Made by a program: the position numbers and the translations under genes. Of a stretch of DNA of 41,093 nucleotides, positions 1 through 34,730 are shown piece after piece; the stretch's first letter is position 1, and each line of letters starts with the position of its first letter. A model generated the notes under the pieces. It searched no databases. It saw nothing but the letters and a program-made list of their open reading frames with translations, and was not told the DNA's origin. The stretch comes from Candidatus Proteinoplasmatales archaeon SG8-5 (GTDB lineage Archaea > Thermoplasmatota > Thermoplasmata > SG8-5), in contig LSSH01000085.1 in NCBI GenBank assembly GCA_001595885.1, positions 1 to 41,093 on the forward strand, in the 5' to 3' direction.

Positions 1-1335
1 GATCGCATCGGCCTGCTCGTAGGCATATGACGCACCCTCCAGGTCGCCCTGCCTCTCGAGGAGTTCTCCCCGGCGCACCCAGGCCTTGTCGAAGTAGGGG
101 TTGAGCATCAGCGCGTTGCCCAGAGCGTCCATAGCCTCGTCCGGCCTTCCCAGCCAGTCCAGCACGTTGGCCTTGGCGAGCCAGGAATGGTCGTAGTTAG
201 GATTGAGCTCCAGGGATTGCGCTATCAGCTCCAGGCCCTCCTCCAACTCTCCCGTCCGGGCCAGGGCGTAGCCCTTTGCATACAGGGCATAATCGAAGTC
301 CGGCTTGAACTCCAGGGCCTTGTCGTGATATTCGAGCGATTCTTCGTGGCGACCCATCTTGTCCAGGGCGTTGCCGATGTTGTTCCAGGCTATCTCATAG
401 TCGGGGCACACCTCGATGGCCCACTCGAAATAGGGGATGGATTCCTCGTAGTTGCCGAGGTTGTAGTAGGCGTTGCCGATGTTGTTCCACAGGACCTCGT
501 CGCCCTTGTCTATCTCCAGCGCGGCCTTGTAGCACTCGATCGCTTCCTGCAATCGACCGGCGTTGTGGAGCGCGTATCCCTTGTTGTACCACCCCTGCTT
601 GAACTTCGGGTGTATCTCCAGGGCTGCTTCGTAGCACTTCACCGCTTCGTCATGAACGCCCAGCATGAACAACGCGAGCCCCTTGTTGCTCCAGGCCTCG
701 AAATGGCCCGGCTCCCTCTCCAGCACCCTGTCGAAGTACCCGAGAGCCTCGTTGTACTCTTCCATCGCGTAAAGGACGTTGCCCATGCCGCAGACGGCGT
801 TGAGGTTCTCAGGCTCTATGTCGAGCAGCCGCCCGTATGTTTCCAGTGCTTCTTCCGAGTCGCCGAGGGCCTGCATGAGCCGCGCCCTGGCCAGCAGCGC
901 CTTGGGATCTTCCTGATGTTGGTGTCCGACCCTTTCCACCAGCTTGAGGGCCTCCTTCCTGCGGCCGACGGAGATCAGGGCGATGGCCTTGTCGTAGTAG
1001 GCCACGTAATATTCCGGCTCGACCTTGAGGACGCGGTCGTACAGCTTCAGGGCCGCCTCGACCTCTCCGAGGTAGGTCAGCGAATTGGCCTTGTTGTACA
1101 ATGCCAGGGTGTATGCGGGGTCGATCTTCAGGGCCGCGTCATACATCTCCACTGCCTCCCCGTGCCTGCCCAGCGCGTCGAGAGCCACCCCGTAGTTATT
1201 GATGATTACGGCGTGGTCCGGATTCTTCTCGAGTGCCCTCTTGTAGAACCTCAGCGAATCCTTGAAGCGACCGCAGTTGGACAGGAGATTGGCCTTCAGG
1301 AAATCCTCGTCCTCGGGGCCCGGTGAACCGGCCAT
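1..1335 (-). CDS. TPR-repeat protein, 3' end truncated by window start
   Basis: Reverse-strand translation from ATG at 1335: MAGSPGPEDEDFLKANLLSNCGRFKDSLRFYKRALEKNPDHAVIINNYGVALDALGRHGEAVEMYDAALKIDP..., open to the window edge with canonical TPR periodicity. Missing from the ORF track because it has no stop inside the window; the listed 187..1326 (+) ORF is its antisense shadow. Confidence 0.93.
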   Translation of the reverse strand, partial: MAGSPGPEDEDFLKANLLSNCGRFKDSLRFYKRALEKNPDHAVIINNYGVALDALGRHGEAVEMYDAALKIDPAYTLALYNKANSLTYLGEVEAALKLYDRVLKVEPEYYVAYYDKAIALISVGRRKEALKLVERVGHQHQEDPKALLARARLMQALGDSEEALETYGRLLDIEPENLNAVCGMGNVLYAMEEYNEALGYFDRVLEREPGHFEAWSNKGLALFMLGVHDEAVKCYEAALEIHPKFKQGWYNKGYALHNAGRLQEAIECYKAALEIDKGDEVLWNNIGNAYYNLGNYEESIPYFEWAIEVCPDYEIAWNNIGNALDKMGRHEESLEYHDKALEFKPDFDYALYAKGYALARTGELEEGLELIAQSLELNPNYDHSWLAKANVLDWLGRPDEAMDALGNALMLNPYFDKAWVRRGELLERQGDLEGASYAYEQADAI

Positions 1336-1365
1336 ACACCCAAATACACCTCATAGGCTAAAAAC

Positions 1366-2457
1366 CTACGCAGTTTTGAAATCATAATAATCGCTGAGGA
1401 GCTCTTCCAGCTCCCTAAGTTTCTCTTCCAGGAGGGTCCTGGTCTTGACCTCCCGCATCATCGATGTGCTCAGGCCGTTCAGGCTGTCGTCGTAGGGCGG
1501 CTTCTCGCCAAGCAGCGAGAACACCATCATGTGCGCGAGGTTGACATTCTCCGTTGTGTTGTACCCTCCCTCGATTGCCACGCTGAGCTTGCCCTTGTTC
1601 AGCTCCTTCAGGCGCCGGACGAACTCGTAATATCCGTTCCCGGTCAGCTGCAGGTTGCACTGGGTATCGGTGTAGTGTGAGTCGAAGCCCACCAGGCACA
1701 TGGTGAAATCGGGCTTGTATTGCTCATGAATGGGTTTCACAAGCTTCTCGAGCACATACAGGTATTCCTCGTCTCCCGAGTTCTCGGGCAATTCCATGTT
1801 AACGTTGTAGCCGCGGCCCTTGCCCCGACCGATCTGGTGGATGAACCCGTCATGCGGATAGAAGTCGTGCGGGTCCCTGTGCATTGATAGGTTGAGGACG
1901 GTCGGGTCCTCGTAGAATATCCTCATCGTGCCGTTGCCTGCGTGGGCGTCGATGTCGACTATCATTATCCTCTCGGCCAGTCCCTCGTCCAGGAGGACGC
2001 TCGATGCGATGGCCGCGTTGTTGAAGATGCAGTAGCCGCCGAAGGAATCCGTGCTGGCATGATGGCCTGGCGGGCGAACCAGTGCAAACGAGGTGTCAGC
2101 CTCTCCGCATGCGACCAGTTGCGAGGCTTTTATGACAGCCCCTACAGCCGATATTGCAGCCTTGAACGTATTCGGGGCAAGATAGGTGCTGTCACCGAGG
2201 AAGCCGCCCCCCCTCTCGCAATAATTCTTAACGAAATTTATGTACCCCTCGTCGTGAACCGTTCTCAGCTGGTCCTCAGTGGCTGGCGGGAAATCGGTCA
2301 CGAGGGTGCAATCTGGCCTTTCGAAGAGCCGGAGACGCCCCTCGAGGAAGTTCATGATCCTGATGAGCCTCGTGGGATTCTCAGGGCTTGACACCTCGGA
2401 CTTATGGACGATGTGGTTGGTGTTGTGTACTATCGCGCATTTTTTGATATCGGACAT
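1366..2457 (-). CDS. Histone deacetylase / acetoin utilisation (AcuC-like) family amidohydrolase
   Basis: Motifs RPPGHHAS, DIDAHAGNGT and GFDSH retain the Zn-binding and catalytic residues of the HDAC fold. Confidence 0.93.
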   Translation of the reverse strand: MSDIKKCAIVHNTNHIVHKSEVSSPENPTRLIRIMNFLEGRLRLFERPDCTLVTDFPPATEDQLRTVHDEGYINFVKNYCERGGGFLGDSTYLAPNTFKAAISAVGAVIKASQLVACGEADTSFALVRPPGHHASTDSFGGYCIFNNAAIASSVLLDEGLAERIMIVDIDAHAGNGTMRIFYEDPTVLNLSMHRDPHDFYPHDGFIHQIGRGKGRGYNVNMELPENSGDEEYLYVLEKLVKPIHEQYKPDFTMCLVGFDSHYTDTQCNLQLTGNGYYEFVRRLKELNKGKLSVAIEGGYNTTENVNLAHMMVFSLLGEKPPYDDSLNGLSTSMMREVKTRTLLEEKLRELEELLSDYYDFKTA

Positions 2458-7601: not shown

Positions 7602-8120
7602 ATGAAAGCGCGTAAGTACGAGAATGTTGAATTTGTTATCAATCACTCAACGGACGAGATGAAGCTGAGCCTTGTTTGGAAGAAGGGCGGCCTTTACCTT
7701 TCACTGTCGGGCCTGTTCCTCACCGACGGGAACACGTGGTACGAGCTTCCGGTGAAGGAATTGGAGAATATCACGGTGGTGAGCGATACGCCGCCGAAGA
7801 TACGCCTCAAGATACCGCAGCTCGACATCATGATATCAGGAGAGAGGGCCGAGAAGCTGCTTGCACTGCGGCACTTCCTTCTGCCGTACATATCCGGTGA
7901 CGAACCGGACAGCGAGCTGAAGGCTCTCCTTCGCTTCTGGGGGATAGGAATAAAGGACGCGCCCATACTCTCAAAGTTGTTGAAAATCGATGAGGAGACT
8001 ATCGAGAAGCTGATTACCGAATCCAAGGACAGGGGTTACATAGACGGTAACGGAGAGATCACACCTGCCGGGAACAGGATGTTCTCGGACGAGGTCAACA
8101 TGGTGGGAGGGGAAGGCTAG
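7602..8120 (+). CDS. CheF-like (PH-like fold?) N-terminal domain + C-terminal wHTH protein
   Basis: N-half beta-rich (LYLSLSGLFLTDGNTWYELPVKELENITVVSDTPPKIRLKI); C-half LLRFWGIGIKDAPILSKLLKIDEETIEKLITESKDRGYIDGNGEITPAGNRMF is wHTH-like, architecture as in archaeal CheF-type proteins. Confidence 0.5.
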   Translation: MKARKYENVEFVINHSTDEMKLSLVWKKGGLYLSLSGLFLTDGNTWYELPVKELENITVVSDTPPKIRLKIPQLDIMISGERAEKLLALRHFLLPYISGDEPDSELKALLRFWGIGIKDAPILSKLLKIDEETIEKLITESKDRGYIDGNGEITPAGNRMFSDEVNMVGGEG

Positions 8121-8121
8121 G

Positions 8122-9012
8122 ATGGAGAAGATAAACGAGTTCGGGAGCTTTGCCGAGACCATCAGCGCCCTGGGTACACTTACGAAGCTCGAATCTGCCG
8201 TCGATGCGGCCGTCAAGAACTCAAAGGTCCCGGCCAGAGAGACGCGGAAGTTCCTCAAGTGCATGACCGTCGAGGAGGCCGGCAACACCGCACTGTTCCA
8301 GTTCATCAGGGAGCTGTTCGTGCGGGTGGGCCTGGGTCAGATGAAGCTGACGAGGAACGACATCTTCAGGTATGACATCGCCATCAATGAAAATCCCGTG
8401 GCCAAGCTGTATCCCAATGTCACCAACAAGAAGACGTGCTACATCACGGCCGAATCAATAATGGAGTTCTTCGCCAAGGACCTGGGGTTGCCCGGGAACT
8501 GCGAGGAGACGGCGTGCGTCAACGCGGGTGATGACCGTTGCGAGTTCTCGATATCTTTACAGCCGCTGGCCGTTTACCAGCTGGCCCTGGATGCCTCGGA
8601 CAAGGAGATAATAATGGCCATCATGGACGGCTCGACCGTTCAGAGCATCGCGACGAAGCTGGACATGAGCGACGAGGAGGCCCAGTACAGGCTGAGCGTG
8701 CTTAAGAGGTATCACATCCTCGATGAAAACTTTGCTATAACCGAGATCGGGGACACCTACCATAAATACGGGGAAGGAATGCCCATTCAGGAGGACGATT
8801 TCCCTCCGCCATGGAAAGATATGGCCGAGATATCGGGAGCCATATCGGCGTCGACCTCGTTCGCCGAGGCCTTCACAGAAACGGCTAAGGAGGAACCGTT
8901 GTGGGACGTGAACGAGGATGACATCGTGAACCTGGCCGACGAGGCTAAGAAAAGCACCAGCTTTGCTGAATTACTTTCAAAACAAATTAAGAACAAGGAA
9001 AAGGACGATTGA
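8122..9012 (+). CDS. V4R-domain sensor protein with wHTH domain
   Basis: LFVRVGLGQMKLTRNDIFRYDIAINENPVAKLYP...ITAESIMEFFAKDLGLPGNCEETACVNAGDDRCEFSIS matches the V4R (4-vinyl reductase) C-terminal Cys motif, followed by wHTH SDKEIIMAIMDGSTVQSIATKLDMSDEEAQYRLSVLKRYHIL. Confidence 0.75.
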   Translation: MEKINEFGSFAETISALGTLTKLESAVDAAVKNSKVPARETRKFLKCMTVEEAGNTALFQFIRELFVRVGLGQMKLTRNDIFRYDIAINENPVAKLYPNVTNKKTCYITAESIMEFFAKDLGLPGNCEETACVNAGDDRCEFSISLQPLAVYQLALDASDKEIIMAIMDGSTVQSIATKLDMSDEEAQYRLSVLKRYHILDENFAITEIGDTYHKYGEGMPIQEDDFPPPWKDMAEISGAISASTSFAEAFTETAKEEPLWDVNEDDIVNLADEAKKSTSFAELLSKQIKNKEKDD

Positions 9013-9023
9013 ACGGAGGAATG

Positions 9024-9902
9024 AGAATGGAAAGAATTAAGACGGGAATATATGGGTTGGATCAACTCATTGAAGGTGGACTGAGAGACAACACGGCCAT
9101 TGTGGTTGTAGGTTCCAGTGGTACAGGAAAGACCACTTTTGGGATGCAGTTCCTAATGCACGGCATTGAGAACGGCGAGCAGGGTCTCTACGTTACCATG
9201 GAGGAATCCCCAGAACAACTCATGAAAGAAGCGGAGATGCTTGGATGGGATATGAAGAAGCACTATGAAAAATCCCTCTTCTTCATCCACCTCAAGGGGA
9301 AGAATTTCAAGAAGATGATCGACGAGCAGATCCCGCAACTGGTCAAGGCCAGGAGCGATTACGACATCAAGACACGAGTGGTGATTGACCCAATGACACC
9401 TGTCATCTGGGCGACTGAAGATAAACTTCATCAGAGAGAGCTCATCGGTAAGCTGTTCTACACTCTGAAGGAACTTGGTGTTGTCATGGCCACCGTGGAG
9501 GAGCATTCCAAGCCGGGCGAGATAGTCGGCGAGGATGTACTGCTTCCCGTCTACCTGGCCGACGGCGTCATTGACCTCGAGTACTACCCGATCGGCGGGG
9601 CTTTCAACCGTACCCTCAAGATCATCAAGATGAGGGGGACGCACCACGGCGAGGGAGTGTACCCTTACATATTTGCCAGGGGCATCGGCATAGTGATAAG
9701 GACCTCCCAGGTCGAGGCGGTAAAGGTCGAGGAGGGAAAGAACTTCGATTCCATCTTCGACGAGGCGATAAAAACTGCCGAGTTCATCAAGGCACCCGAT
9801 TACATAATCACCAAACTGAAGAACATGAAGGAAGGCTGGACATACAACTATTCCCCAGAAGAGGCCTTACAGGTGATATTCGACTCCTATGGTTTGAAGT
9901 AA
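9024..9902 (+). CDS. Single-domain KaiC/RadA-like ATPase
   Basis: RIKTGIYGLDQLIEGGLRDNTAIVVVGSSGTGKTTFGMQFL (Walker A GSSGTGKT), YVTMEESPEQL, TRVVIDPMTPVIW (Walker B), LKIIKMRGTHH. Confidence 0.92.
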   Translation, partial: RMERIKTGIYGLDQLIEGGLRDNTAIVVVGSSGTGKTTFGMQFLMHGIENGEQGLYVTMEESPEQLMKEAEMLGWDMKKHYEKSLFFIHLKGKNFKKMIDEQIPQLVKARSDYDIKTRVVIDPMTPVIWATEDKLHQRELIGKLFYTLKELGVVMATVEEHSKPGEIVGEDVLLPVYLADGVIDLEYYPIGGAFNRTLKIIKMRGTHHGEGVYPYIFARGIGIVIRTSQVEAVKVEEGKNFDSIFDEAIKTAEFIKAPDYIITKLKNMKEGWTYNYSPEEALQVIFDSYGLK

Positions 9903-9917
9903 GGTCGGAGGACTTGG

Positions 9918-10709
9918 ATGGCAAGCGACAAGAAGATAGACAAGCGAATGGAGGCCGAGACGGTCGTACAGTTAAAGCACATGCTGGAGATGGAGCTGAA
10001 GAGGATCCAGGAGACCAACAAGGTCGACATCATCATGTTCGTCGGTATTGACGGGCGCATATTCAGTTCTCTGATACCGCAGCTACTGGACGGCACGCAG
10101 TTCCGACTTCTGAACCTTGTCAAAGGTAACCTTCCTTCCATCTGCAGCCAACTGACGGCCGAGAACCTGGAGATCAGCATCCATAAGTACAAGGACGGCA
10201 CCGTGGTCATCTCCGGTGTCGGGGACAACTGCTTCCTGGTCTCGATATTCACAAAGGAAGTGGATATCAAGGAGCTTCAACCGGTGGTGACCGGTATTAC
10301 CAAGGGCAGCGCCGTGCTGAATCACCTCTTCGAGCTCAAGCCCATAACCCCCGAGGCAATGCAGGGGTATGACGATGAAGTAATCGAGGAGCTGTCGAAG
10401 CTTACGAGGCTGCTCTTCGTGGAGAAGTTTGACGAGACAAGGGAGTACAAGCGAAACATGGAGCTGCTCAAGTTCATGAAGAACAAGATAGGCAGCGTGG
10501 TGGGCATCGGTGCGGTTGACGAGATAGTCACGGTCACGATGAACGAGCTCGGTACTTCGGCCCCTTACATGAAGGAAAAGGACTGGATCAAGTTCACAGA
10601 GATGATAATCGACACCCATATCAAGAAGGCCAGCGGTGACATTGTCGCCGATGAGTGCAGGAAGACATGGATACCAGAGATAGAACGCAAACTCAAATCC
10701 TTCGTTTGA
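9918..10709 (+). CDS. Roadblock/LC7-like domain protein with unknown C-terminal helical domain
   Basis: VDIIMFVGIDGRIFSSLIPQLLDGTQFRLLNLVKGNLPSICSQL...LEISIHKYKDGTVVISGVGDNCFLVSIF resembles the archaeal Roadblock/LC7 fold. Confidence 0.65.
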   Translation: MASDKKIDKRMEAETVVQLKHMLEMELKRIQETNKVDIIMFVGIDGRIFSSLIPQLLDGTQFRLLNLVKGNLPSICSQLTAENLEISIHKYKDGTVVISGVGDNCFLVSIFTKEVDIKELQPVVTGITKGSAVLNHLFELKPITPEAMQGYDDEVIEELSKLTRLLFVEKFDETREYKRNMELLKFMKNKIGSVVGIGAVDEIVTVTMNELGTSAPYMKEKDWIKFTEMIIDTHIKKASGDIVADECRKTWIPEIERKLKSFV

Positions 10710-10718
10710 TAAACAGGG

Positions 10719-13559
10719 ATGGGAAGAATGGCAAAGGCGAAGAAGACGACGAGGAAGAGCACGACTTCTAAAACTAGTAAGCCAAAGGCCTCGACAAAGA
10801 AGAAGTCGCTTGCCAAGAAGACCCCCAAAAAGACTGAAAAGAAGACCGATAAGAAGCCGGAGCTCATTTGCCAGTTTTGCGAAAAACCCATGAAGGACGA
10901 GAAGACGAAGAAGGTCCACGAAAGTAATTGTAAGAAGAAGAAGGAAGAGAAGGAGAAGAAGCCGCCCAAGAAGGATCTGGAGGAGGCCGTTGCGAAGTTA
11001 AAGGACGAGTTCGAGGACCAGAAGAGAGTATTCAGCGACCGCTTCACCGAGCGGGAGGACAGGCTCCACGAGGAGATACGCGAGCTCAAGGAAGTGCTCA
11101 GGCTGGAGATAGAGCACCGCCACAAGGAGCGGGAGCGGCGGAAGCGGGAGGAGTCGGAGACCGCGGCGGCGGAGGCCGTGCTGGAAGAGGTCGCGGAGGC
11201 GATTGATAAGGAGATGGAGACCTCGGAGGAGACCGCCCGGGAACCGGAGCCATCACCGATACCGGTTGCCCAACCACCAACCCAGATACCGGCCGAAGAC
11301 GCTCCAAGGGCCATTGACATGATTCCGACGCCTGTGCCCGAGATTCCGCCGCCGAAATCCCCCGAGCAGATTGCACCTGGAATCGGCGCAGCTTCGCCTG
11401 AAGAGGTTACGGTTGAAACGGCGGAGATCCCCCCCTCGGAATCGAAGGAGGTCGCAGCCGAGGAACCCGCTGTTCAGCCAGAGGCGGAATCCGAGCCCAA
11501 GATCGACATGGACAGGGAGGCCATCGTCACGCTTATCCGTGAGGAATTGGGGAAAAAGGACGAAGAGAAGGCCGGTCCCGTTATCGAACTGGACGGGATC
11601 ACCGGACAGATCGATGACCTTTCAACGGAGGTCAAGACGCTCAAGAGAGACCTGGAGACAACTTCCTCAAATCTCAGGAAAACGCTGGACAAGATTGAGT
11701 ATGACGCTGAATTCAAGAGAATCGAGCGCGAGCTCAACAAGTTCTCGGAGAAGATAGCCGAGATTATGGACGAGATCGGGTTCGGCGAGCAACTGAACGT
11801 TTCAAAGATACCGCCGACCATCCTGGAGATAGTCTATCAGGCCACGCTGGACGACCTGACTCTCGAGCTGGCCCGGGCGATGGGCACCCAGGATGCGGAA
11901 AAGGTCTCAAGGGCTGCTTTGGAGGAGGTAAGGTTGAAGACGAGCGGCAGCGAGCTCTTCAAGTTCGACGGGCGCAAGATCGTTACCGATAATCTTGCCC
12001 ATTCCATAGAGGCCAACCTCATCTCGGCAAAGCAGATACAGACCACCTACGACGAATTGCTCAGCCGGCTGCTCGAGAATCTCCCCCATCACAAGGCAAA
12101 GAACTTCAGGGCAATGATCAAGGTGAAGAGCCAGGAGTTCGCAGTTGACAGGGCGACAATGCTGACGAAGCACACGGACCGACTTGAGAACGTGCTCGAG
12201 ACCTCCAGCCAGATGCTGGCGGCCTTGTCAGCGCAGCTGAACTCGCTTCAGCTGGAGCTCAGGGAGGAACTTGACGACATCAAGAACAACATGATATTGA
12301 CCAAGGCCGAGGCCTCTGATATCGACCTCATCAAAATCAAGATGAACGAGAGGGACGAGAGGGAGGCAAAGCTCATGAAAGACCTCTCATTGTTGAGGGC
12401 CGAGGTGGAGATGGGAAAGAAGCTGGCAAAGAAGGATGAGAAACCGAAGATGGAATTGGGGGCGGAAGTGAAACCAACCGAGGATAAGCCCGCCAAGAAG
12501 GAGGAAGAGGTTAAGGAGGAGCCGCCGAAGGATGAGGCCGAAACATCCACGCTTGAGGCCGATGTCTTAAAGGCCATCTCCGACGGAGCTGGTTCAAAGA
12601 CGGCCATCAAGAAGAGCACCGGTCTGAAGGAGAAGGAGATTCTTGAGGCTGTTTCAAAACTCGTAAAGGACAAGAGAATCATCGAGAAGAAAGCTGGAAA
12701 GAGGATATCCTACATGACGCCGGATAAAGAACTTGAGGATAAGATCAAGAAGAAGGAGAAACCAAAGGAAGAGAAAAAACCTGAGGTCCCGGAAGTTATT
12801 GAAGGTGAGGATATCATTGTTGTGCCGGAGGGACCTCCGGAGGAAGAGCCCAAAACAAAGAAAGGGCCCAAAAAGAAGGCCGGGGACAAAATGGCAATGG
12901 AAGAGCCTGAGAAGAAGCCCAAGAAGGCTCCGAAGAAAGAGCCTGAAAAGAAAGAAGAGAAGACGCCGCCCAAGAAGGCTCCGAAGAAAGAACCTAAAAA
13001 GAAGGAAGAGAAGAAACCTGAAAAGAAAGCTGAAGATGAGAAGAAGGCACCTTCTGAGAAGGCGAAGGAAAAGATTGAAGAGAAAGCGCCCAAAAAGGAG
13101 GCTGAAGAAGAACCTAAACCCGAGAAAGAGAAGCCAGAGCCTGAAAAGCCGGTCGAGGAAATGGAGCCCGAGGTGTCAAAGGAGCCAGAAGAGCCCGTGG
13201 AACCGAAGGAACCAGATCCGGAAAAGGCCCCTGATAAGAAACCAAAGAAGGAGCCCGAAAAGGAACCTGAAGAGCCCGAGATATCCATACCGACTGAGTC
13301 CAAGGGTCTCGACGAATTAAGCGAGGAAGAGAGAATGGTCCTGGAGGCCATCACGGAGGATGGTCTTACCAGGTCGGGGATCCAATCCAAGGTCGGCAAG
13401 GACCTGAACTACACCACCGTGCTCAGGGCGCTGCGGGTGCTCATCGATTCGGGCTACGTGGGTATCGTTACGAAGGGCAGGCTCACCCTTTATCAGAAAA
13501 TCAGTGTCAAAGAAATGGATAAACCTGAAAAGGAGAAGAACAAAAAGGAGGTGAAATGA
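10719..13559 (+). CDS. 946-aa C2HC zinc finger / coiled-coil / Lys-Glu-Pro-rich protein with two C-terminal-half wHTH domains
   Basis: LICQFCEKPMKDEKTKKVHESNC (C-x2-C-x12-H-x3-C), long coiled coil, wHTH-1 DVLKAISDGAGSKTAIKKSTGLKEKEILEAVSKLVKDKRIIEKK, low-complexity KKAPKKEPEKKEEK tract, wHTH-2 EERMVLEAITEDGLTRSGIQSKVGKDLNYTTVLRALRVLIDSGYVGIV. Confidence 0.85.
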   Translation: MGRMAKAKKTTRKSTTSKTSKPKASTKKKSLAKKTPKKTEKKTDKKPELICQFCEKPMKDEKTKKVHESNCKKKKEEKEKKPPKKDLEEAVAKLKDEFEDQKRVFSDRFTEREDRLHEEIRELKEVLRLEIEHRHKERERRKREESETAAAEAVLEEVAEAIDKEMETSEETAREPEPSPIPVAQPPTQIPAEDAPRAIDMIPTPVPEIPPPKSPEQIAPGIGAASPEEVTVETAEIPPSESKEVAAEEPAVQPEAESEPKIDMDREAIVTLIREELGKKDEEKAGPVIELDGITGQIDDLSTEVKTLKRDLETTSSNLRKTLDKIEYDAEFKRIERELNKFSEKIAEIMDEIGFGEQLNVSKIPPTILEIVYQATLDDLTLELARAMGTQDAEKVSRAALEEVRLKTSGSELFKFDGRKIVTDNLAHSIEANLISAKQIQTTYDELLSRLLENLPHHKAKNFRAMIKVKSQEFAVDRATMLTKHTDRLENVLETSSQMLAALSAQLNSLQLELREELDDIKNNMILTKAEASDIDLIKIKMNERDEREAKLMKDLSLLRAEVEMGKKLAKKDEKPKMELGAEVKPTEDKPAKKEEEVKEEPPKDEAETSTLEADVLKAISDGAGSKTAIKKSTGLKEKEILEAVSKLVKDKRIIEKKAGKRISYMTPDKELEDKIKKKEKPKEEKKPEVPEVIEGEDIIVVPEGPPEEEPKTKKGPKKKAGDKMAMEEPEKKPKKAPKKEPEKKEEKTPPKKAPKKEPKKKEEKKPEKKAEDEKKAPSEKAKEKIEEKAPKKEAEEEPKPEKEKPEPEKPVEEMEPEVSKEPEEPVEPKEPDPEKAPDKKPKKEPEKEPEEPEISIPTESKGLDELSEEERMVLEAITEDGLTRSGIQSKVGKDLNYTTVLRALRVLIDSGYVGIVTKGRLTLYQKISVKEMDKPEKEKNKKEVK
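12918..13013 (+). repeat. Near-identical 45-nt tandem duplication in the low-complexity tract (12918-12962 and 12969-13013; period 51)
   Basis: cccaagaaggctccgaagaaaga[g/a]cct[g/a]aaaagaa[a/g]gaagagaag repeated; encodes PKKAPKKEP(E/K)KKEEK. Confidence 0.85.
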
Positions 13560-13560
13560 A

Positions 13561-14193
13561 ATGCTCGATGTAGCATTGGTCTCGCTTATCCAAGACATGA
13601 GCGAGAAGGCTGGTGTCGAGGGCACCATCCAATACTGGGCTAGAGTGGGTGAAAGCCTGGCCAAGAGAATGGGCAAGGAAGCGTATATGGGTTGGCCGTC
13701 CTTCAACGTCGCGTTGAGGGAGGGTCGAACAGCGTTTTCCATAGAGGGAAGCGTCACTGCCTTGACCGACCTGGCCATAACAGACGTGGACGGCGACGTT
13801 GTCGGTTACATCTACGCGTTGGAGACCTGTGTCTTCAACCCGACTATCGTGCGGATACGATACAGCGTCGGCGAGTTGCCGAGGGCAGATAGTGCCGTCG
13901 CAGAGGAATACAACAACAGCGTCAGGGACACGGCGGTCTGCAACTTCTGCGTGATACACCAGAGGTTCAGGGAGGAGGTGGCAAAGAACATCTCCATCGC
14001 CGACCAGGCGTTGGACTGCGTGCAGCTGGCCAACAGGGGCTTCACAGGTGACACGAAGATCGCTGAGGATGCCCTTAAGAAGATAGGCATCAACCCCGAG
14101 TACGTCCGCAGTCTGTTGAGGAACTACGCATGTGTCTACGCCATCCTGATGAGGGGCGCAAGACTCAAGGGCGAGGAAGAGGAGGCAGAGTAG
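13561..14193 (+). CDS. Uncharacterised protein, paralogue A of a tandem pair
   Basis: 210 aa; shares AEEYNNSV...CNFCVIHQRFREEVAKNI with the next gene. Confidence 0.85.
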   Translation: MLDVALVSLIQDMSEKAGVEGTIQYWARVGESLAKRMGKEAYMGWPSFNVALREGRTAFSIEGSVTALTDLAITDVDGDVVGYIYALETCVFNPTIVRIRYSVGELPRADSAVAEEYNNSVRDTAVCNFCVIHQRFREEVAKNISIADQALDCVQLANRGFTGDTKIAEDALKKIGINPEYVRSLLRNYACVYAILMRGARLKGEEEEAE

Positions 14194-14205
14194 GAGGTGA
14201 GATGA

Positions 14206-14820
14206 ATGGGAGAAAGGAGAAAAGGTTTGATAGCAGACAACCCGTTCGTTGACGTTGCCGCCTGCCTGTTCCTCGAGGACATCGCAGACAAGCAAGGAGC
14301 CAGCGGGATGAACAACTATCTTGTCAGCCTTGCGACGTCCCTCGCCAAGAGCATGCCCGAAGAGGAGTACGCCACATGGGACGACTTCCTCGACTCGTTG
14401 GTAAAGGGCGAGTCCATCATATCCGCGTTCGAGGATGTGATTACCGTCACGCCGCACTGCGCGGTCACGACCGAGTGCCCGTTCACAAAGGGCTGGCTCG
14501 AATACACCAAGAGGATCGGAACGTTCTCGAAGATACATACGGACGTGGCCGAGTATTATAACTCCGTATACAAGCCCGGCACGATCAACTCAATGTGTAT
14601 CATCCACCAGACCTTCAGGAACGCGGCGGCCGAGAGGATCAAGATCGCAGGCAAGATCCTGAAGATATCCCAGGTCGCGGCTGTCTGGGAGGACGGGACC
14701 AGGAAGATAGCGCCGGACGAGTGGGTGCCCATATTGCTGGAGAAGGCTCAGATAACCGGGACAGACCTGAACATGATATTGAGGAACAACGCAGACGTCT
14801 GGGTGATGTACACAGAGTGA
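14206..14820 (+). CDS. Uncharacterised protein, paralogue B of a tandem pair
   Basis: 204 aa; AEYYNSV...NSMCIIHQTFRNAAAERI aligns with paralogue A; similar length and helical N- and C-termini. Confidence 0.85.
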   Translation: MGERRKGLIADNPFVDVAACLFLEDIADKQGASGMNNYLVSLATSLAKSMPEEEYATWDDFLDSLVKGESIISAFEDVITVTPHCAVTTECPFTKGWLEYTKRIGTFSKIHTDVAEYYNSVYKPGTINSMCIIHQTFRNAAAERIKIAGKILKISQVAAVWEDGTRKIAPDEWVPILLEKAQITGTDLNMILRNNADVWVMYTE

Positions 14821-14985
14821 TCCACCGAACAGAAGCGTGACGAACGCTATTCCAGGCATGCCCAGTCATATCAGTGGTAAACCTTATCATATGGTCTGGA
14901 TATACCGTATCCGGCCCTTATCTCAGGATGGACCGAGTGTGTCAGCACCTGCATTCCGGACCTGAAAGAAGGGAGAGGTGAAGGC

Positions 14986-15543
14986 GTGATCGAGCTGGCA
15001 AGGAGCGGTGACCTCATATTCTACAAGTTTGAGGAACCTTCTGAGATAAACAAGTTCCATATACTCGGTTCCGAAGACGGGAGGTTCTCCGGTGGGGGTT
15101 TCGAGTTCTTCCGAGGTCTGGGCATCATCGGATACGACAAGACCTTCAAGATATGGCTCAGGAAGTTCCCGAGACCCATCTTCATCGTGGCTGCCAAGGG
15201 CAATCACATTTACTCTTGGGTGTTCATCGAGGAATGGTTAGAGGAAGCTTCGGTCGACGGGATGGCCGTTTGGGTTCTCAGGGCGATAGAGACGCTTCCG
15301 TCGGAACGGAGGAAGAAGATAGGGTTCAGGCTCGTTGTCCTAGGGGCAAAGCAGAGCACCGGTTACCTTATCACCAAACCGTTGACGCCGGAGGCCGAGA
15401 GGTTCTTCAGGATGTGCGGGTTCATGTCCCCGAAAGAGTTCAAGAAACCGCCCATCGACTTCACGCGGCATCCTGGCCACTTGATACTTCCGCCGTACAA
15501 AAAGGAGCAGCTGATCGAGCAGGTTGATGATTATTTTAAATAA
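14986..15543 (+). CDS. GNAT-like (possibly degenerate) protein of unknown function
   Basis: AVWVLRAIETLPSERRKKIGFRLVVLGAKQSTGYLITKPLTPEAERFFRMCGFM has GNAT-like topology but lacks an obvious Q/RxxGxG/A motif. GTG start; own upstream TATA-like ccttatcatatgg near 14881. Confidence 0.6.
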   Translation: MIELARSGDLIFYKFEEPSEINKFHILGSEDGRFSGGGFEFFRGLGIIGYDKTFKIWLRKFPRPIFIVAAKGNHIYSWVFIEEWLEEASVDGMAVWVLRAIETLPSERRKKIGFRLVVLGAKQSTGYLITKPLTPEAERFFRMCGFMSPKEFKKPPIDFTRHPGHLILPPYKKEQLIEQVDDYFK

Positions 15544-15580: not shown

Positions 15581-16480
15581 TCAAAAGAGGGAGAGTATCT
15601 CATTGCCGAACTGCTCGGCCTTGGTCTCTCCGATGCCGTAGATGGACTGCAGGTCCTCTACCGATGCTGGGTCCTTGCTTGCTAGTTCCCTCAGTGTCCG
15701 GTTCTGAAGCACGAAATACTTGGGCTTGCCCATCTCCTCCGACTTCTTGTCCCTCCACTCCTGCAGCAGGCCCTTGCGCCTCTCGACCTCCTCGATCTCC
15801 AGGTTGGACTCGACCTCCACTGGGAGGTCGTCACCGCCGGCCAGGACGTCCAGGCCCTTGCTCGTGATGACGAGCACCGGGAACTCGGATTCCTCCGCGT
15901 AGGCGATGTAGTTCTCCTCGATGAGCCAGTCTATGAGCGCGAGCACCTCCTTCATGGATGCGCCCTTGGCTACGCCGTACTGGCCCAGCTTGCCGATGTT
16001 TATGGTCAAGACCTTCTTCGACACGGAGCCCGTTAACACGCGGGCTATTGTGGTGCGACCGTAGGTCCCGCCCATGTCGAACACGCATTTCAACACAGAG
16101 AGCGCTAGGCTTGAGGTCTCGGTCTCGGCGGGAACGCCCTGCAGGGCGATGACCTCCGTGAAGGCCATTGTCAGCTGCTGTCCGTTCTCGGTAGTGGCGA
16201 ACACCTCGATGTCCGCGTCCACGACGTTGCGGGCGAGGCTGATCTCCGCCCCGCTGTCTATGTAGCATATCGGGCGGACGCCAGCGCACAGGTTGTGCAC
16301 GACAACCGCGCCGTCGGGCCTGGCGGTCATCAGGACCTTTCCGTCGAATTCCTTCGTAACGGCCTCGTTGACGTACGTGCCCCGGCACTGGCCGACCACG
16401 ATGATGGTCTGGAGGTTGGTCATTTCGTTCGTTTGGCTTTGCATATCGTTTGTTTCGTTTTGGTTCATTTTTTCAACCAT
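15581..16480 (-). CDS. NucS/EndoMS N-terminal-like domain + RQC-like + HRDC-like protein lacking helicase and nuclease domains
   Basis: N-part IIVVGQCRGTYVNEAVTKEFDGKVLMTARPDGAVVVHNLCAGVRPICYI (NucS N-terminal-like); LSVLKCVFDMGGTYGRTTIARVLTGSVSKKVLTINIGKLGQYGVAKGASMKEVLALIDWLIEENYIA (RQC); WRDKKSEEMGKPKYFVLQNRTLRELASKDPASVEDLQSIYGIGETKAEQFGNEILSLF (HRDC). Confidence 0.75.
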   Translation of the reverse strand: MVEKMNQNETNDMQSQTNEMTNLQTIIVVGQCRGTYVNEAVTKEFDGKVLMTARPDGAVVVHNLCAGVRPICYIDSGAEISLARNVVDADIEVFATTENGQQLTMAFTEVIALQGVPAETETSSLALSVLKCVFDMGGTYGRTTIARVLTGSVSKKVLTINIGKLGQYGVAKGASMKEVLALIDWLIEENYIAYAEESEFPVLVITSKGLDVLAGGDDLPVEVESNLEIEEVERRKGLLQEWRDKKSEEMGKPKYFVLQNRTLRELASKDPASVEDLQSIYGIGETKAEQFGNEILSLF

Positions 16481-16483
16481 CCT

Positions 16484-16548
16484 GCCTTCTTCGGAAGGCA
16501 ACGGCTTCGGGCATTCGGGTGTATGCCCCGAATGCCTCACTACGAAGC
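16484..16548 (-). promoter_or_regulatory. Structured 5' leader (two stem-loops) of the NucS-N/RQC/HRDC gene
   Basis: Minus-strand RNA: GCUUCG-UAGUGA-GGCAUUCGGG-GCAUACA-CCCGAAUGCC-CGAAGC (16504-16548), then GCCUUC-CGAA-GAAGGC (16484-16499), then AUG at 16480. Confidence 0.6.
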
Positions 16549-16641
16549 AATTGTAACAATGTTAGGTTAGTATTTATTAACCATATAGTACTCTTAACGT
16601 ACAAGTAACAAAGTTATATATGCGAAGCCTTTCAGCGACCA

Positions 16642-33554: not shown

Positions 33555-34730
33555 TTATCCTAGTATTTTTCCTAACTCTTTACCTATTGATTTGACGTTC
33601 CCCAGCTCTTCAGTGTCGGGAACGAACTTCAGGTTCACATACTCGATCGGAACCTCCCAGCCCATGTCCTTCATGAACTTCTCGATCTCGCCGGCAGCCT
33701 GGCCACCCCATCCGAACGAGCCGAACGCGAACCCCAGGCGGTCCTTCGGCCTCAGGCCCTTCAAGTAAGTTAGAAAGCCTCCCATCGACGGAAGCATTCC
33801 GTTGTTGATGGTTGGCGAACCTATCAGAATCAGTTTTGATGTTATCAGGTCGGTCATGACATCCGAGATGTGGGTGTTCTTTAAGCTGCGGACGGTCACT
33901 GGAACGTCCGCCTCGCTCAGACCCTCTGCGAGGGCGTATGCGATTCTCTCGGTGGAGCCCCACATCGTGTCGTAGACTATGAGGGCCCTTGCCTCGGTTT
34001 CGTGGTTTGCCCATTTCACGTACTCGGCAAGTATGTCCGGTATGCGGGAGCGCCAGATGATGCCGTGGCTTGGTGCTATCATGTCGATGTCCAGACCGCC
34101 CAGCGCTTCCAGGGCCTTGCCGACCTGGGTGCCGTAGGGCATGACGATGTTCGCGTAATATGTGGCTGTCGCTTCCTTCAGGACACCCCATTCAATCTCG
34201 TCGTCGAACCTCTCCGCGCTTGCTATGTGCTGGCCGAAGGCATCGTTGGGCAGGAGGAGGTTCTCCTCGGGAATATAGGTGACCATTGAATCCGGCCAGT
34301 GTACCATTGGCACGTGAACGAAGACCAGTGTCCTCTTGCCGATGCTCAGCTCTTCACCGGACTGGGCGACGTGGAAGTTCCAATCCCTCTTGTAGTGCCT
34401 GCGAAGGCCCTTCTCGCCCTGGACCGAGGTAATGAGTGTGGCGTTCGGAGCCTCCTCCAATATCTTGGGCAACGAGCCCGAGTGGTCCATCTCGACATGG
34501 TTGGAGACCACGTAATCTATCTTTGAGGGGTCGATTATCTCCTTGATCCGGGCCAACATCTCGCCGTACAGGTAATGCTTGACGGTGTCGACCAAGACCA
34601 CCTTCTCGTCGATTATCAGGTAGGCGTTGTACGTGGTCCCCCTGTGGGTCTTGTATCCGTGGAAATCCTGGATATGCCAGTCGATGCCGCCCACCCAATA
34701 TATGCCCGGTTTTATCTCGATTTTATTCAA
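33555..34730 (-). CDS. fprA: Flavodiiron protein (FprA / F420H2 oxidase-like)
   Basis: MBL domain VSNHVEMDHSGSLP...FVHVPMVHWPDSMVTY...PSHGIIWR and flavodoxin domain IVYDTMWGSTERIAYALAEGL...GSPTINNGMLPSMGGFLTYLKGL; TTG start at 34730. Confidence 0.95.
   Translation of the reverse strand: MNKIEIKPGIYWVGGIDWHIQDFHGYKTHRGTTYNAYLIIDEKVVLVDTVKHYLYGEMLARIKEIIDPSKIDYVVSNHVEMDHSGSLPKILEEAPNATLITSVQGEKGLRRHYKRDWNFHVAQSGEELSIGKRTLVFVHVPMVHWPDSMVTYIPEENLLLPNDAFGQHIASAERFDDEIEWGVLKEATATYYANIVMPYGTQVGKALEALGGLDIDMIAPSHGIIWRSRIPDILAEYVKWANHETEARALIVYDTMWGSTERIAYALAEGLSEADVPVTVRSLKNTHISDVMTDLITSKLILIGSPTINNGMLPSMGGFLTYLKGLRPKDRLGFAFGSFGWGGQAAGEIEKFMKDMGWEVPIEYVNLKFVPDTEELGNVKSIGKELGKILG

Follow-up and report, generated by a model that had tools for sequence, protein, structure and literature searches.

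A NucS-type N-terminal domain joined to a RecQ-type RQC-HRDC tail in one order of Thermoplasmata

The gene described here lies on a 41,093-nucleotide contig of Candidatus Proteinoplasmatales archaeon SG8-5, the whole of which is referred to below as the window. It encodes a protein in which a domain resembling the N-terminal part of NucS/EndoMS is followed by an RQC winged helix and an HRDC domain, and it is preceded by a putative promoter element and a predicted leader hairpin (Table 1). An open reading frame had been proposed at this position in a first-pass annotation and is upheld here, although its strand (minus) had not been stated. Translation on the minus strand probably begins at the ATG at 16468 (M5), giving a protein of 295 aa. 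This start is preferred because orthologue starts lie nearby and because a sequence resembling a ribosome-binding site precedes it (GGATGGTTGA in the window and GGAGGTTGAT in orthologue L026, with a GGRKGTTGA-like pattern).

Table 1. Coordinates of the fusion gene, its domains and its upstream elements in the window
Feature	Position	Strand	Basis or remark
NucS_N-RQC-HRDC gene	15581..16480	minus	299 aa from ATG 16480 to stop at 15581
Low-complexity N-terminal tail, residues 1-22, N/K/E/T/Q-rich	16415..16480	minus	A/C-rich coding DNA
NucS/EndoMS N-terminal PH-like domain, residues 23-117	16130..16414	minus	Pfam (E 0.0015), hhalign, predicted fold
Invariant Cys72-Tyr73, replacing base-reading Asn76-Trp77 of EndoMS	16262..16267	minus	Alignment
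RQC winged-helix domain, residues 121-224	15809..16120	minus	PF09382, E 1.6e-16
GSxSK loop of RQC; G151, S152, S154 and K155 invariant	16016..16030	minus	Orthologue alignment
HRDC domain, residues 239-297	15590..15766	minus	PF00570, E 1.4e-18; matches 2ma1, 2rhf, 1wud
Tandem operator-like element, TTACTTGTAC (16608-16599) G TTAAGAGTAC (16597-16588)	16588..16608	minus	Consensus YTACNWGTAY, offset 11 bp
TATA box, ATAAATACT	16569..16577	minus	10 bp downstream of proximal operator copy
Predicted 5′ mRNA hairpin, GCTTCG...GGCATTCGGG/CCCGAATGCCCGAAGC	16504..16548	minus	Starts ~25 nt after TATA box

Identity of the protein to its orthologues is 82% within the genus, ~70% within the family, and 50-56% and 39% across the order. 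In comparison with the nearest orthologue, dN is 0.10 and dS is 1.38, and each of the three domains has a dN far lower than its dS. The fall of identity with relatedness and the excess of dS over dN indicate vertical inheritance under purifying selection, and the frame at 15581-16480 is a real gene. The codons of the N-terminal tail are especially well preserved, with 15 of 16 identical to those of L026 as against 119 of 225 in the remainder of the gene. Such conservation at the 5′ end is not special to the fusion gene: codons at the beginnings of two neighboring plus-strand genes (13561-14190 and 9009-9899) are also unusually conserved relative to L026, with 20 of 21 and 18 of 20 identical, respectively.

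The C-terminal half of the protein is collinear with residues 399-586 of the RecQ model TIGR01389 (E 3.6e-23) and shares 33% identity over 180 aa with the RecQ proteins of Listeria and Enterococcus. In Pfam, the HRDC domain scores 67 bits against a cut-off of 23.8 and the RQC domain 60.6 bits against a cut-off of 23, and both are present in all ten orthologues. As a whole, the protein reaches only 82 bits on TIGR01389, for which the cut-off is 640, and the helicase core is unmatched. Domain searches detected no helicase motor, Zn-binding domain or nuclease domain in the protein; the C-terminal nuclease of NucS (PF01939) gives no match, and what remains beyond the N-terminal domain consists of RQC and HRDC. 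The GSxSK loop of the RQC domain probably corresponds, by its position, to the α2-α3 region through which the RQC domains of WRN and BLM contact DNA (PMC4212688). The net charge of this domain ranges from -9 to +3 among orthologues and is mostly acidic. The purified HRDC domains of WRN and BLM displayed no detectable DNA binding, and the BLM HRDC is acidic too (PMC4212688).

For the N-terminal domain, the Pfam NucS_N score of 18.9 bits falls under the cut-off of 23.9, with a match at E ≤ 1 in 8 of 10 orthologues. A sequence search of the PDB with the N-domain profile retrieved no NucS, and it was thus necessary to rely on fold and on profile-profile comparison. An hhalign comparison of seven orthologous N-domains against those of ten NucS proteins found in other Thermoplasmatota gave a match over 90 columns (96.3%, E 1.7e-9). 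The full-length AF2 model (pLDDT 59) was rejected as a guide to domain arrangement, and the N-terminal domain was instead folded alone. The resulting template-free model of residues 20-120 (pLDDT 90.3) retrieved EndoMS/NucS structures at ranks 1-5 of a Foldseek search of the PDB (TMq 0.74-0.80, rmsd 2.2-2.7 Å; best TM, up to 0.80, to 5gkj/5gke), while the sixth match reached a TMq of only ~0.45. The profile-profile comparison and the confidently predicted fold together establish the NucS-N identity of this domain despite its sub-cut-off Pfam score. The first-pass annotation had noted the resemblance to NucS-N, its fusion to RQC and HRDC, and the lack of a helicase motor and of the NucS nuclease, and its anatomy is right on each count.

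The base-binding pocket of this domain is remodeled. In EndoMS, Tyr41 and Trp77 sandwich flipped bases, Asn76 reads the flipped base, and Arg44 and other basic residues form a clamp (PMC6829318). According to the hhalign alignment, from which the residue equivalences are taken, Tyr41 corresponds to Y36 in nine of the ten orthologues (F in the other) and Trp77 to Y73 in all ten. The counterpart of Asn76 is Cys72, invariant in the ten, and the clamp residue Arg44 is replaced by E, A or G at position 39. Net charge is -3 to -7, as compared with +1 in EndoMS. The pocket thus aligned has kept its aromatic cage but not its mismatch-reading chemistry. A surrounding motif, G-x-R/K-P-x-C-Y-I-x-x-G-A-E, is well conserved among orthologues, and this strong conservation indicates that the pocket still has a specific role.

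Of 13 genomes from the Thermoplasmata order to which the window belongs, 11 contain an orthologue, and these represent all six genera; the two genomes that lack one are 77% and 61% complete. A search of 48 other genomes of the class yielded no whole-length match and one weak match to HRDC only. Among 150 genomes of the class, an RQC domain was found in 12, and in eleven of these it belongs to the fusion gene; the RQC matches outside the fusion are a weak 222-aa frame (genome G036) and another protein (genome G008). The latter, a 447-aa protein of the same order (L015, 747-2090, minus strand), scores over the RQC cut-off and has no helicase motor and a different architecture. Separately, genome G007 encodes a motorless protein of 279 aa that carries an HRDC domain at its C-terminus (L014, 1480-2319, minus strand), followed by a gene for a 181-aa protein that by eye resembles a PD-(D/E)XK nuclease (945-1490, minus strand). 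A scan of genome contigs with conserved N-domain peptides, which a strongly diverged version elsewhere could escape, returned ten loci, all of the same clade (UBA147 included) and labeled as Methanomassiliicoccales, Thermoplasmata or Euryarchaeota MAGs. In the genomes scanned, therefore, the architecture was found in one Thermoplasmata order only, where the fusion gene is a vertically kept core gene rather than a patchily distributed defense gene. A mobile-element or phage origin was considered and rejected: tblastn matches in phages and plasmids are confined to the RecQ-like C-terminal half, and PHROGs matches are weak.

The neighbors of the gene differ between families. In family f1 it is divergent from hypE, with hypD, hypA and hypF nearby on that side and a cluster of KaiC, V4R and coiled-coil genes on the other. 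Its flanking genes in family f3 encode, by sequence, a glycosyltransferase and an acyl-CoA synthetase. No helicase, nuclease or other repair gene is a conserved neighbor in these two families. The domain architecture is most naturally read as that of a DNA-binding protein with no catalytic activity, and to this extent the earlier suggestion of a DNA-structure adaptor is sustained, but the helicase or nuclease partner that it invoked lacks genomic support. The window's own copy of the cluster conserved in f1 (7602-15543, plus strand) includes several members with no confident Pfam name. It comprises a winged-helix protein, a V4R protein, a KaiC-type ATPase, a 263-aa protein, a 946-aa K/E/P-rich protein with weak winged-helix matches, two tandem related proteins (210 and 204 aa) and a 185-aa protein.

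Upstream of all orthologues is the sequence YTACNWGTAY, degenerate in some, positioned 10 bp ahead of the TATA box and usually accompanied by a second copy 11 bp further upstream. Three families of the order share the element, which stays with the fusion gene whether the neighbor of that gene is hypE (f1) or the glycosyltransferase gene (f3). With matrices trained solely on other families, 10 of 11 promoters yielded a site where one was expected, among them the promoter of L035, a locus left out of every training set; between 0 and 64 of 500 shuffles reached the score. The copy in the window is the weakest of all ten, and it was missed by the cross-family matrix combining operator and TATA box. 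An initial promoter pattern with the wrong spacing gave no matches. In a whole-element scan of the 13 genomes, every significant site but one was the promoter of the fusion gene itself; most of these are training sequences that match by construction, and it is the absence of other sites that is informative. The single exception is marginal (E 0.006) and occurs in genome G005, in which the fusion gene was not found. An exact-pattern search agrees in the main, and genome-wide scans of the order revealed no regulon for the element. A second match in the window, to YTACNTGTAY at 34566-34575, was set aside as chance, residing within coding sequence that resembles a flavodiiron protein.

An autoregulated DNA-binding protein would be expected to have an element of this kind, conserved over three families, tied to one gene and almost absent elsewhere, and the finding suggests that the fusion gene is autoregulated. 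Alternatively, the operator could be the target of a different regulator that is devoted to this gene. Downstream of the TATA box, a hairpin at the start of the 5′ leader is predicted in all ten orthologues, and both sides of its stem differ among them (GCATTC/GAATGC, GCATCC/GGATGC, GCTTC/GAAGC). The leader in the window (16482-16548, minus strand) contains two predicted hairpins, and the 5′-terminal hairpins of orthologues often have an A-rich loop; no Rfam family matches it.

From these features we infer dimerization, autoregulation and binding to DNA, together with the kind of DNA recognized, and we arrive at a best-supported reading in which our confidence is evenly divided: a dimeric, motorless, autoregulated protein that binds DNA passively and derives from an ancient fusion of NucS-N with a RecQ tail. 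A PH-like domain of NucS/EndoMS would have been joined, apparently once, to the RQC-HRDC tail of a bacterial-type RecQ in the ancestor of this Thermoplasmata order, both catalytic parts being absent after the fusion. NucS-N would serve as the dimerization platform, and its remodeled aromatic pocket (Y36/Y73/C72) might hold a base or other ligand, though not a mismatch of the NucS kind. Both RQC winged helices could then bind duplex DNA, either beside a branch point or on paired sites, with HRDC contacting single strands or a partner protein, and the whole would act passively, by occupancy. By binding the tandem YTACNWGTAY sites upstream of its own TATA box, the protein probably represses or tunes its own synthesis. 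Against this reading stand the mostly acidic NucS-N and RQC domains, which are unusual for DNA binders, the poor full-length model, the weakness of the window's operator copy, and the possibility that the operator serves another regulator. The main target may be branched DNA, the gene's own promoter or something else.

An unlikely alternative is a sequence-specific regulator in which RQC reads YTACNWGTAY, NucS-N dimerizes and senses a ligand, HRDC docks, and DNA-structure binding has been given up. Such a protein would suit a tandem operator 10 bp from the TATA box, whose fixed 11-bp offset sets both copies on the same helix face, as well as the invariant Cys-Tyr of the pocket and the acidic N-terminal domain. 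However, one clear target site per genome, the gene's own, is too few for a regulon, and known RQC domains bind duplex ends through the α2-α3 loop and wing rather than through the recognition helix (PMC4212688). It is distinctly unlikely that the protein assists replication or recombination as a structure-specific accessory factor, supplying a RecQ tail in trans to an unlinked helicase or topoisomerase. In favor of this, its RQC-HRDC region is collinear with RecQ, full-length RecQ exceeds the cut-off in none of the 13 genomes of the order, and other helicases there do match the RecQ motor; no gene of helicase or topoisomerase type is a conserved neighbor, however, and the sequence does not identify a partner. 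A nucleoid-associated or DNA-bridging architectural role would fit a core gene, and high expression would be in keeping with its A-rich initiation region, its TATA box and its 5′ hairpin, but we consider such a role very improbable for a fusion protein that is net acidic.

Most improbable is the first-pass proposal of an adaptor that recognizes mismatches and passes them to another nuclease, the least supported part of that annotation: despite the NucS-N fold and two aromatics that might still sandwich a base, Asn76 and Trp77 have become Cys and Tyr, Arg44 is lost, the surface is acidic, and 12 of the order's 13 genomes already carry MutS. A NucS that has the N-domain was not detected in the order (PF01939 matches in genome G002 come with no NucS_N match), although NucS occurs in other classes of the phylum.

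The separate domains of the fusion are already known; their combination is confined to one order among the genomes scanned and was not found in a literature search, which is not proof of absence. Such a protein would show that the recognition domain of NucS can exist apart from its nuclease and that the RQC-HRDC tail can be useful with no motor. The promoter element, absent from the first-pass annotation, and the invariant Cys-Tyr pocket provide two concrete handles on function. Conceivably, though we lean toward doubting it, the recognition parts of two repair enzymes have become a catalysis-free, autoregulated core protein shared by an archaeal order. Its NucS pocket would then have been adapted, with an invariant Cys in place of Asn, to another flipped base or to a lesion or ligand, and RQC-HRDC would read the surrounding DNA.

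Among known systems, NucS/EndoMS (PF21003 and PF01939; PDB 5GKE, 2VLD) shares with the fusion protein the predicted PH-like fold, the aromatic pocket and the RPDG...V-H...P--Y/W motif region, but the fusion protein has no nuclease domain, has replaced Asn76, Trp77 and Arg44, is acidic, and is only ~16% identical. RQC and HRDC resemble the RecQ C-terminus (TIGR01389) in their order, spacing and sequence, with ~33% identity to RecQ of Firmicutes, whereas the RecA-like motor and Zn-binding subdomain are missing. RQC-minor-1 (NF041107), a family of DNA-binding proteins on which a literature search found no paper, likewise has an RQC domain with no helicase, but the fusion protein scores 56.3 bits against its cut-off of 115, in a match limited to residues 135-212. 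DpdF, a RecQ-like protein of a PADLOC defense system, is matched (7.4e-20) only in the tail of its 611 residues, and no DpdF-type neighbors were seen; an anti-phage function of this kind was rejected in view of the tail-only match and of the status of the fusion as a core rather than patchy gene. A comparison of working mode only can be made with Stf76, which is unrelated and is a protein of 76 aa with neither NucS-N nor HRDC (PMC4027180). Like the mechanism favored here for the fusion protein, this small archaeal winged-helix protein is autoregulated through paired sites in its own promoter.
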